From NCBI GenBank assembly GCA_019637685.1, contig JAHBVF010000026.1:1-64000 (forward strand): DNA of 64,000 nt. The letters run 5' to 3'. Of the stretch, positions 31,516-40,964 are shown piece after piece (position 1 is the first letter of the stretch; the number at the start of each line of letters is the position of its first letter). The position numbers and the translations under genes were made by a program. Below the pieces are notes generated by a model, which was not told where the DNA came from, ran no database searches, and saw nothing but the letters and a program-made list of their open reading frames with translations. The stretch is from Caldilineaceae bacterium (GTDB taxonomy: Bacteria; Chloroflexota; Anaerolineae; Caldilineales; Caldilineaceae).

Positions 31516-32565
31516 ATGCAAATCGACCTCATCGCCACTGCCATCGCCCTGCTGACTTTCTTCGCCATCTCCGGTCTGATGGCGATCAGTCTGAATTTGG
31601 AGTACGGATTGGCGGGCATCCCCAACTTTGGCAAAGCGCTCTTTGTCTCCCTGGGCGCGTATACCGCGGGCTGGACGTACACCCGGCTGCTGCCCCGGCT
31701 CCACGGCGTGGACGCGCTCGATCCCTGTGGGCTGACGCTGGGACAGGCATTGCAGATGCGCAGCGAGATTCTGCGCACCTTTCCACTGGAAGCGCTGGGC
31801 AACTTCGCCATCACACTGCTCATCGCCGCGGCCATCGGCGGCGCGATTGGCTGGCTGGCCTCCTACCCGGCCCTACGTCTGAAGGAGGAGTGGTATCTGG
31901 CCCTGGTCCTGCTGGTGGGCAGCGAAATCCTGCGCATCGTCGTGCGCGGCTACGATCCGCTCATCTGCGGCACAAACGGGCTTTCCGGCATCGCCCAACC
32001 CTTCGCGTGGATGGGGACGCTGACCGGCAGCCCGCGCATCGCAGCGCTTTCGTTCCTCGCCTTTGCTCTGCTTTTGCTGGCCGCGGTCTACCTCTACGCG
32101 GAGCGGCTGGTGCGTTCGCCCTTTGGCCGTCTGCTGAAGGCTGTGCGTGAAAATCCGGACGTGGCCCAGGAGTTGGGCAAAAATGTGCCCCGCATCCGGG
32201 CCGGGGTGATGTTTATCGGCTCGGCCATTGCTGCCATCTCTGGCGTTCTCTTTGCGGTCAATCTGGGCTTTGTCAGCACCAACGATTACGCGGTGGCGCT
32301 GACGCTGGATGTGTGGGTGATGGTTGTGCTGGGGGGCATCGGCAACAACCGGGGCGCGCTGTTGGGCGCGGCGATTGTCACGCTGCTGGATCGGGTGACG
32401 GCTATCAGCGCCATCCGCCTGGATATGCTAGGCCTGGACTTTGAGTTCAACTACGTGCGTTTCATCCTCTTCGGTGTCATTCTGCTGCTGATGCTGCGCT
32501 ACCGGCGAGAGGGCCTGCTGCCGGAGCCTGTCAGTACAACGGGCGCGCATGGGGTGATGGGGTAG
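31516..32565 (+). CDS. livM: Branched-chain amino acid ABC transporter, permease LivM type
   Basis: The 349-residue membrane protein has AISLNLEYGLAGIPNFGKAL, the LivM helix-1/2 signature, then WYLALVLLVGSEILRIVVRG, LICGTNGLSGI and FGRLLKAVRENPDVAQELGKN with the cytoplasmic EAA-like loop, and GVLFAVNLGFVSTNDYA..VVLGGIGNNRGALLGA near the end. The ATP-binding genes that normally follow (livG, livF) are missing on this strand; a LivF-type ATPase lies 0.9 kb away in the opposite orientation beyond an Rhs fragment. Confidence 0.9.
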   Translation: MQIDLIATAIALLTFFAISGLMAISLNLEYGLAGIPNFGKALFVSLGAYTAGWTYTRLLPRLHGVDALDPCGLTLGQALQMRSEILRTFPLEALGNFAITLLIAAAIGGAIGWLASYPALRLKEEWYLALVLLVGSEILRIVVRGYDPLICGTNGLSGIAQPFAWMGTLTGSPRIAALSFLAFALLLLAAVYLYAERLVRSPFGRLLKAVRENPDVAQELGKNVPRIRAGVMFIGSAIAAISGVLFAVNLGFVSTNDYAVALTLDVWVMVVLGGIGNNRGALLGAAIVTLLDRVTAISAIRLDMLGLDFEFNYVRFILFGVILLLMLRYRREGLLPEPVSTTGAHGVMG

Positions 32566-33150
32566 AATCCGTGATTCAGCGCAACCGCAGTCTGTAATGC
32601 TGTGTGTACAGGCATAAGCGTCACGACCCACTGTCAGGATTAATTTTTCGCCCGGCTGATGCAACTTCGGATTCACGACCGGTTCCAATGAAACGGGCCG
32701 GATCAGCCCTGTCCGGCCCTCGAACTTGCGATTGTACTTCTCGTAGAAGGGCGTCAGATACTCCAGCGTGGCGAAGGACTGGTTGGCGATGTTGTTGAGC
32801 CACCAATCGGGTGTGGTTTCGTCTCCCCAGTCTTCGTGAAAGCCCTGCTCCGTGTAGCCGAGTCCGGCGATACCATTGGCCATTTGCCAGCATTCACTGT
32901 TGCCGTCCATGTCCGGTTCTCCATTTCTGGTGGTGGCGCAATGGCCGTCCGGGTCATTATACTTCAGCGGATTTCCCCACACATACAGAAACCGGTTGTA
33001 ATCCACCACCCGCCCGGCATCCGGCACCAGCGTATCCGGCGAGAGGAATGTGCCCAGGGCAGGGTCGTAGTAGCGAGCGTTGTAGTAGAGCAGCCCCGTG
33101 CCGTCGGCTTTTTGGCCGGTGAACGTGCGGTCGGTCTGACCCTCTCCCAG
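32428..33150 (-). pseudogene. Rhs/YD-repeat core and tip fragment
   Basis: On the minus strand the frame reads DRTFTGQKADGTGLLYYNAR, YYDPALGTFLSPDTLVPDAG and YNRFLYVWGNPLKYNDPDGH, the highly conserved Rhs-associated core that precedes a variable toxin tip. The 100 or so residues after DPDGH (CATTRNGEPDMDGNSECW...) would be the tip; I do not recognise it. The frame runs on into the 3' end of livM on the opposite strand, so its true C-terminus is lost. Upstream of about 33150 the YD repeats are missing. It is thus truncated at both ends. A second, near-identical core lies in the opposite orientation at 63523-64000. Confidence 0.75.
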
Positions 33151-39189: not shown

Positions 39190-40100
39190 GTGAGAGCGTG
39201 TTTAGAAATTAAGTAGTAGGTTTGATGCGTTTGAGCATAGTGGAGATGGAAGCGACATAAATGACACCTTCGCTACTTTTTGTACAGCGCTCAAAGTCTT
39301 TACTGAGGCGGCGAAAGCGGCCAAGCCAAGCTAAGGTGCGTTCGACAATCCAGCGGACAGGAACGACGACGAAGCCTTTGGAATTAGGTGAACGATTGGT
39401 GATTTCAAGGGAAGCCCCTACATTTTTCTCTAACCATTCCTGGAAATCAGCACCGCGGTAACTACCATCGGCCCAGATTTTTTTGAGTGAAGACAGAGTT
39501 TCCGGCGACAGTTTGGCGAAAACCAGTTTAGCGCCGTCACGATCTTGACCATTGGCGGCGTTGACAACGACATCGAGTAAGTTGCCGCAAGTATCAACTA
39601 GGTCGTGACGTTTACGTCCTTTGATGTTCTTGCCGCCATCATACCCAGATTCGCCGCCCGCTTCAGTGGTTTTGACAGTCTGGCTGTCCATGATCCCACC
39701 GCTTGGCTCAGGTGTGCGGCCCCGTTCGATTCGTTCCCGTTGCCGCACGGCAGTGTTGAGCTTTTGCCAGGTCCCGTCCAGACACCACTTACGGAAGTGA
39801 TAATAGATTGTGCTCCACTTCGGAAAATCGTGCGGTAAGGCACGCCATTGACAGCTTGTGCGTACCACATATAAGATAGCATTCACGATCAGACGTAAGT
39901 TGTACTTGAGTGGGCGTCCAGCTCCCGTCTTCACATCGATAAGCGATTCCAAGACTTCCCATTGCTCATCGGTCAAGTCGCTTGGATAGCTCTTTGTTTG
40001 CTCTTCCATTCTCTTCTCCTTGGATTGTTATGGTTTTTAAACCATTTTACTCCACGAAGAAGTTTTCGTATAGCAAAAGAAGAGCCTGTTTGAATATTAC
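39190..40100 (-). mobile_element. IS5-family insertion sequence, ends uncertain
   Basis: An intact transposase lies between AGAGCGTGTTTAGAAATTA (39193-39211) and AGAGCCTGTTTGAATATTA (40081-40099). These end-like sequences match at 15 of 19 positions, but in direct rather than inverted orientation, so at least one is not a normal terminus. GAAACGT occurs just outside both (39185-39191 and 40115-40121) and belongs to a palindrome family found elsewhere in the window. The element borders are therefore provisional. Confidence 0.5.
39209..40009 (-). CDS. IS5-family DDE transposase
   Basis: The 266-residue protein has an N-terminal DUF4096-like region (YPSDLTDEQWEVLESLI, YVVRTSCQWRALPHDFPKW) and a DDE catalytic core: D108 in IMDSQTVKTT, D181 in IWADGSYRGADF and E223 in VERTLAWLGRFRRL. 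All three carboxylates and the Y(2)R(3)E region are present in one uninterrupted frame, so the enzyme looks functional. AAGGAGAAGAG precedes the ATG. Base use is less GC-rich than its neighbours, in line with recent arrival. Confidence 0.92.
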   Translation of the reverse strand: MEEQTKSYPSDLTDEQWEVLESLIDVKTGAGRPLKYNLRLIVNAILYVVRTSCQWRALPHDFPKWSTIYYHFRKWCLDGTWQKLNTAVRQRERIERGRTPEPSGGIMDSQTVKTTEAGGESGYDGGKNIKGRKRHDLVDTCGNLLDVVVNAANGQDRDGAKLVFAKLSPETLSSLKKIWADGSYRGADFQEWLEKNVGASLEITNRSPNSKGFVVVPVRWIVERTLAWLGRFRRLSKDFERCTKSSEGVIYVASISTMLKRIKPTT

Positions 40101-40170: not shown

Positions 40171-40229
40171 CTTTCACTTTTGTGCTATACTGGCAGCTAT
40201 CGTAATCCATTTCACCAGAGGCACACCCA

Positions 40230-40703
40230 ATGGCCCAGGCCGACACACCCAAACTTGACCAGGGGGATTCCTTCCCCCCGATGACAATTTCGCTGCTCGA
40301 CAGCAGCACATTGACTTTGCCCGACGATCTGAACGCTGATTTCACCGTCTTCCTGGGCTACCGGGGCAAGTGGTGAGGCTACTGCCGTCGGCAGTTGGCC
40401 GACTATCAGAGCCGTCTGGGGGAACTGGAAGCTTGCAACGCCCGTTTGATCGCGGCGTCGGTGGATTCCGAAGAGGATGCCCAGTCTCTGGTGGAGATGC
40501 TGGGGCTGACTTTTTCAGTGGGCTACGGGCTTGATTTTATGGACTTTGCCCAGAAGACCGGCGCGTTCTACGAAGTGCGGCGCAGTATTATCCACGCCAC
40601 CAGCTTCATTCTGCGCCGGGATGGCACAGTGGCCCACGCGGTCTACGCCACCGGGCCGATTGGCCGGTTGACGGTGGATGATTGCATTCGGATGTTGGGG
40701 TAG
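40230..40703 (+). CDS. Redoxin (AhpC/TSA-like) with in-frame TGA: probable selenoprotein
   Basis: One frame from ATG 40230 to TAG 40703 encodes a full-length redoxin of 157 residues if the TGA at 40374-40376 (codon 49) is read as an amino acid. N-terminal part: LDQGDSFPPMTISLLD and FTVFLGYRGKW; then TGA; then GYCRRQLADYQSRLGEL, RLIAASVDSEEDAQSL, LTFSVGYGLDF and SFILRRDGTVAHAVYATGPI. In this thioredoxin-fold family the motif is RGxWCxxCRRQL, so TGA stands exactly where the nucleophilic cysteine belongs, giving U-G-Y-C. Both sides are full and in the same frame, with no other stop or shift. A hairpin begins directly after the TGA. A nonsense mutation in a Cys gene is the alternative. It would be a cytosolic thiol/selenol peroxidase or reductase. 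A 68-codon gene follows after 13 bases. Confidence 0.7.
40377..40400 (+). promoter_or_regulatory. Candidate bacterial SECIS hairpin
   Basis: Directly after the in-frame TGA, CTGCC (40382-40386) pairs with GGCAG (40390-40394) around a GTC loop; A-T and outer GGC/GCC pairs extend the stem with a mismatch and a bulge. Bacterial SECIS elements are hairpins within about 40 bases of the UGA with G and U in the apical loop, recognised by SelB. The position and loop fit loosely; the stem is short and the apical loop nearer to UGA than in the E. coli fdhF case. Confidence 0.4.
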
Positions 40704-40716
40704 AAAGAAGGAAAAG

Positions 40717-40923
40717 ATGAGCAGCTTTAGCAACCCACACTATATGTATCTGTTCGATCTCCAGAATGGCAAGAAGAAACTGGCCTATGGCGAATCGCCG
40801 GAAGACGCGCTGGACGTGCTGCGTATCCGCCTGAGCGAGGCAGAGATGGCCGAGATTCTGCCGGAGCAGTACGAGAAGATCAACCAGCGCAAATTGCAGG
40901 AATACGCGCATCTGTTGGGGTAA
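40717..40923 (+). CDS. Small conserved-looking hypothetical protein
   Basis: A 68-residue frame starts MSSFSNPHYMYLFDLQNGKK and ends RKLQEYAHLLG. It is charged, probably all-helical after residue 25 (SPEDALDVLRIRLSEAEMAE), with no membrane segment. The ATG has AAGGAAAAG closely upstream and lies 13 bases after the selenoprotein-candidate stop, so the two are probably co-transcribed. The function is unknown. It is followed by a family A palindrome. Confidence 0.65.
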   Translation: MSSFSNPHYMYLFDLQNGKKKLAYGESPEDALDVLRIRLSEAEMAEILPEQYEKINQRKLQEYAHLLG

Positions 40924-40930
40924 AAGAAAA

Positions 40931-40964
40931 AGAAGTTCGACTTTTCGGAAAAAGTCGAACTTCT
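40931..40964. repeat. Dispersed palindrome, family A, copy 2 (terminator position)
   Basis: AGAAGTTCGACTTTT (40931-40945) pairs perfectly with AAAAGTCGAACTTCT (40950-40964). It lies between convergent genes, eight bases after one stop and seven before the other, so it probably terminates both. Confidence 0.85.

Follow-up and report, generated by a model that had tools for sequence, protein, structure and literature searches.

A predicted peroxiredoxin-like U-x-x-C selenoprotein encoded across an in-frame UGA in a Caldilineaceae genome

Understanding a reading frame that resembles a redoxin yet carries a stop codon at its active site requires a decision on what that codon does: it may end the protein, mark a decayed gene, or specify selenocysteine (Sec). 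The frame considered here lies in a window of 64,000 nucleotides, the whole stretch of Caldilineaceae DNA that was analysed, and runs from ATG at 40230 to TAG at 40701-40703 as 158 codons with one internal TGA, as the first-pass annotation, made from the letters alone, had read it. The TGA takes the place of the first Cys in a C-x-x-C motif (FLGYRGKW-U-GYCRRQL). For the read-through product, Pfam gives matches to AhpC-TSA (residues 12-136; 6e-14, 52.5 bits, gathering cut-off 26) and to Redoxin (PF08534; residues 11-138; 1.3e-07, 32 bits, cut-off 26.6), and because both matches span the two sides of the TGA, the two parts belong to one domain, as had also been claimed. Standard ORF calling yields only a 102-aa fragment with a TTG start (40395-40703), which agrees with the earlier warning that gene callers would miss the gene or report its second half. 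We propose, with a probability of about 0.95, that the locus encodes a peroxiredoxin-fold U-x-x-C thiol:disulfide oxidoreductase whose UGA is read as Sec with the help of SelB and the hairpin at 40387-40403. This reading, in essence that of the first-pass annotation, is supported by a full set of sel genes, a TGA conserved opposite Cys, a covarying hairpin and purifying selection. The features are collected in Table 1.

Table 1. Features at and around the predicted selenoprotein gene (window coordinates)
Feature	Position	Strand	Remarks
Predicted Prx-like (AhpC/TSA, thioredoxin-fold) selenoprotein gene	40230..40703	+	157 residues, U at codon 49
In-frame TGA, predicted Sec codon (U49 of the U-G-Y-C motif)	40374..40376	+	
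TGC codon of C52, predicted resolving Cys of UxxC	40383..40385	+	invariant in 22/22 aligned homologues
Predicted apical hairpin of bacterial SECIS	40387..40403	+	stem GUCGGC/GCCGAC, loop AGUUG (40393-40397), 16 nt after UGA
GTC-loop hairpin of the first-pass annotation, CUGCC-GUC-GGCAG	40382..40394	+	overlaps the 40387-40403 hairpin and is mutually exclusive with it
Small protein of 68 aa, next gene	40717..40923	+	13 bases past the redoxin stop; present in the genus
IS4/5-type transposase	39209..40009	-	between upstream gene and redoxin here; absent there in five genus relatives
Extended -10-like TG-C-TATACT	40183..40191	+	in TGTGCTATACTGGC block; ends 38 bases before ATG

Comparison with homologues carries much of the argument. 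A TGA occupies the same codon in 25 homologous genes from 24 other genomes, giving 26 such genes with the one in the window, and this upholds the contention that the placement of the TGA is not random. Of the six genomes of the genus besides this one, five keep it (84-90% identity), as does one more genome of that family (G032, 41% protein identity); a second family of the phylum has it in 19 genes from 18 genomes, at 34-40% identity. Three of the genus copies come from named MAG contigs that were deposited separately (Anaerolineae bacterium Co_bin.203, Caldilineaceae bacterium Ww71 and Chloroflexi bacterium NC_groundwater_1080). Alignment with Cys forms, which had been suggested as a check, placed a Cys codon in the TGA column in seven homologues from six genomes (G334, G376, G413, G418, G018, and G106 with two copies), four of these genomes being large-genome members of one family; codon 49 is Cys or TGA and never Trp, the preceding residue is a Trp encoded by TGG, and no frameshift occurs around the conserved TGA. 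The Chloroflexota members share the signature RGxWU[SGP][YH]CxRQL. Two changes are enough to account for the Sec and Cys forms on a tree whose deep forks are weak. Within the genus, dN/dS is well below 1 in every pair both for codons 1-48 and for codons 50-157 (for L024 versus L025, 0.087/0.728 and 0.034/0.161, respectively), and to judge from these substitution ratios the gene is under purifying selection on either side of the TGA. The search detected no redoxin copy in G005, a genome of the same genus that has selB and tRNA-Sec, so the gene is either dispensable or absent from that assembly.

The genome (6.32 Mb in 70 contigs, 98% complete) was searched for selA, selB, selC and selD, the genes on which the first-pass annotation had made its case depend, and all four were found. 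SelA (E 4.6e-139), SelB (4.8e-90; 325 bits including a neighbouring stretch, cut-off 242) and SelD (1.7e-103, 347 bits) are accompanied by one tRNA-Sec (Rfam RF01852, 65.6 bits, gathering score 47) with UCA within the anticodon loop CUUCAAA. Judged by this gene content, the organism decodes UGA as Sec. The presence of sel genes was rejected as a means of telling Sec from Cys forms, since selB and tRNA-Sec occur in 19 of 19 genomes tested, those with Cys forms included. Four genomes of the second family with Sec forms (G070, G083, G119 and G160) each have, beside a strong tRNA-Sec match, an additional tRNA-Sec-like one at 47.6-50 bits, barely over the gathering score.

Two other genes of this genome also contain an in-frame TGA. 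The selD gene (L020, G000:C64:6293-7285, minus strand) has one near the N-terminus, at the active-site position (MVACAG-U-ASKLPPGT, UxxK), followed by a hairpin UGUCGCA-GGUCG-UGCGACA whose loop GGUCG lies 32 nt downstream. In a peroxiredoxin gene of the Bcp/PrxQ type (L083, G000:C70:55067-55480, minus strand) the TGA falls at the peroxidatic position (FYPKDDTPG-U-TIQARGFRE, TxxU), and a hairpin CTCGCGG-GTT-CCGCGAG is found 17 nt after the UGA. Given further independent selenoprotein genes in the genome, decoding of the redoxin UGA as Sec would be the expected outcome, and this Caldilineaceae-related lineage probably uses Sec in at least three genes: the redoxin, SelD and the TxxU peroxiredoxin.

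That a hairpin follows the TGA was correctly noted in the first-pass annotation, and the proposal that the GTC-loop hairpin is the SECIS element gives way to an overlapping and better candidate. The GTC-loop hairpin was rejected on the grounds that variation in its stem is one-sided, without compensation across any pair, and that its loop lies 10 nt after the UGA; it amounts to -7.7 kcal/mol alone and is outside the minimum-energy fold of the 37 nt that follow the UGA. That fold is dominated by the AGUUG-loop hairpin (frequency 0.90, z -3.6), which has 6 bp and a free energy of -10.8 kcal/mol as a 19-nt hairpin. Across 13 distinct Sec sequences 98.7% of the cells in its stem are paired, and nine cells are changed on both sides, compared with 2.7 +/- 1.6 after shuffling (0 of 500 shuffles as high), a signal that is destroyed by sliding the strands. 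Pair 40388-40402 appears as U-A, C-G or G-C and pair 40391-40399 as G-C, G-U or A-U. In the former, one partner is a synonymous third base in an Arg codon and the other tracks an Asp/Gly/Ala change; a third position that follows an amino-acid change in this manner is what a constraint on the RNA would be expected to produce. Cys homologues retain 0-3 of the 6 stem pairs, and the homologue at L030 retains 5 of 6.

The bacterial SECIS model described in the relevant passages of PMC13188914 specifies a loop of 3-9 nt with G in one of its first two positions, a stem of 4-16 bp, a spacing of 16-37 nt from the UGA and an MFE of -7.5 or lower. The AGUUG-loop hairpin fits this model, its spacing being at the lower limit, so that scoring the bases after the TGA against a SECIS model, as had been recommended, favours a hairpin other than the one originally chosen. 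A hairpin alone is weak evidence, because 6.2% of all TGA triplets in the window precede a structure that passes the same simple criteria; it is conservation and covariation, and not the hairpin by itself, that carry the SECIS argument. A scan of the region against Rfam returned spurious miRNA models only.

The AlphaFold2 model of the protein has a mean pLDDT of 93.6, and its best PDB neighbours are peroxiredoxins at TM 0.83-0.84, including Sulfolobus Bcp4 (3hjp, TM 0.84) and a 1-Cys Prx (6q5v). In a profile alignment with Aeropyrum Bcp (2cx3), the peroxidatic Cys is matched by C52 and the Ser of SxxC by residue 49. All 22 aligned homologues have Sec or Cys at this canonical Thr/Ser position, giving UxxC or CxxC, and Sec in place of Thr/Ser makes the motif thioredoxin-like. 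We propose that the ribosome would read the UGA as Sec, with SelB bound to the AGUUG-loop hairpin delivering the Sec-tRNA. From the motif and the family, the U49 selenolate would then be expected to attack a peroxide or disulfide substrate, C52 could resolve the U49 intermediate as a selenenylsulfide, and a thioredoxin-like reductant might regenerate the U49/C52 pair.

Other explanations of the TGA fare poorly against these data. Were the TGA a nonsense mutation or a sequencing error that disrupts what was once a Cys redoxin, the broken gene seen in standard ORF calling would be explained, and the IS insertion just upstream, peculiar to this genome, would fit; recurrence of the same-codon TGA in 24 other genomes, some of them 34-41% identical and with no frameshift, largely refutes such decay, dN/dS below 1 downstream of the TGA and the presence of Sec machinery argue against it as well, and on these comparisons its likelihood appears negligible, mutation or error being excluded for practical purposes. 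It is very improbable that translation truly ends at the UGA and starts anew in the downstream part, perhaps from the TTG at 40395, so that a pair of short proteins results or a switch responsive to selenium selects the truncated or the full-length form. Although the 102-aa ORF makes this mechanically feasible, the TTG is a Leu codon within the conserved CRRQL and also part of the SECIS loop, the Cys homologues are single chains, and a split would part the strands of a single peroxiredoxin fold. An open frame does not in itself name the inserted residue, and the UGA might in principle be read as Trp by a changed code or as Cys by near-cognate decoding. We assign this practically no weight: homologues have Cys and never Trp at the site, the Trp just before it uses TGG, tRNA-Sec, SelA, SelB and SelD are all present, and the AGUUG-loop hairpin is kept in the TGA forms only.

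As to the reaction catalysed, a selenoprotein that acts as a true peroxidase, as opposed to a thiol:disulfide oxidoreductase, is the less likely reading but a plausible one. In its favour, both the modelled fold and the nearest solved structures belong to peroxiredoxins, and C52 aligns with the peroxidatic Cys of Aeropyrum Bcp. Against it, 22 of 22 aligned homologues carry Sec/Cys where TxxC has its Thr/Ser, as in thioredoxin-like motifs. Bcp-type enzymes have an Arg ahead of the T/S-F strand, and inspection of the alignment revealed no Arg ahead of that conserved strand here. A more elaborate proposal, to which we give only a slim chance, is that the Chloroflexota genes form a distinct U-x-x-C Prx-like subfamily with a SECIS loop at minimum spacing, in which the competing pair of hairpins, only one of which can form at a time, might decide between termination and Sec insertion in response to selenium or SelB.

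The UxxC arrangement has been described elsewhere. Prx-like UxxC selenoproteins have been reported since 2005-2006, from the Sargasso Sea and later surveys (passages in PMC1088965, PMC1794560 and PMC13188914), in keeping with the statement in the first-pass annotation that such redoxin-like proteins were already known. The window protein shares with the Prx-like thiol:disulfide oxidoreductases (e.g. WP_010940744.1) the domain PF00578, a UxxC rather than TxxU motif, a predicted SECIS directly after the UGA and, as the accounts of that family have it, common Cys homologues; the assignment is made by domain, motif and the published description of WP_010940744.1. With the Redoxin family selenoprotein HEU0032618.1 (PF08534, UxxC), as described in PMC13188914, it shares UxxC and a PF08534 match above cut-off, although PF00578 (52.5 bits) fits it better. 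Sec peroxiredoxins of the TxxU, Bcp/PrxQ type have the same fold and the reverse arrangement: the window protein has Sec where they have Thr, and Cys where they have the peroxidatic Sec. It lacks the Thr/Ser that in that type stands three residues ahead of the peroxidatic Cys/Sec. Membership in the SelL-related redox proteins (NF040769) was considered and rejected at 17.1 bits against a cut-off of 120, and all 22 alignment members match that model weakly (best E 2.8e-16). On present sequence comparisons the protein is most suitably classed with the Prx-like UxxC thiol:disulfide oxidoreductases, to which it adds a member of a selenoprotein type already described. The survey passages on selenoproteins make no mention of Chloroflexota members of this family, and a passage in PMC1794560 lists three selenoproteins for Chloroflexi.

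The finding leaves the concept of selenoproteins unchanged. It shows how standard callers can split or drop a conserved gene that is predicted to encode a selenoprotein, in a lineage hardly discussed in those survey passages, and the 26 Sec and 7 Cys genes with their covarying hairpin provide a small, clean set from Chloroflexota on which bacterial SECIS models can be tested.

The downstream gene does begin at the distance given in the first-pass annotation, and the argument for an intact operon drawn from it is weak, as short spacing (about 12-16 bases) is found in only three of five genus relatives (L025-L027) and about 600 bases separate the two genes in L028 and L029. The 68-aa protein has no Pfam match, and an operon with it was set aside as a functional clue for both reasons. 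In L029, at about 1975-2560, the redoxin and the 68-aa gene are separated by what appears by eye to be a BrnT/BrnA-type toxin-antitoxin-like pair. On the upstream side, a gene named by eye as RraA-like lies about 140-260 bp from the redoxin in relatives, and the IS4/5-type transposase parts the two in this genome alone. The TGTGCTATACTGGC block upstream of the redoxin is kept, by inspection, in all but one of the five genus relatives compared; since it survives downstream of the IS insertion, the redoxin probably retains its own promoter there, although a consensus promoter scan did not list the extended -10-like element. A 48-base piece of the same IS4/5-type element ends contig C35, and more copies may have been lost in assembly gaps. 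Elsewhere in the window (32428-33027, minus strand), the ORF list contains a fragment resembling an RHS-repeat C-terminal core (DYNRFLYVWGNPLKYNDPDGH) that continues into a tail of unrelated sequence. Beyond the 68-aa gene lies a near-perfect palindrome, AAGTTCGACTTTTTCCGAAAAGTCGAACTT (40933-40962), which appears to be a dispersed palindromic repeat or terminator-like element; the genome holds nine copies, one of them about 1 kb upstream of selA (G000:C28:26598-26626), and the palindrome also occurs upstream of the redoxin in the relative L028.
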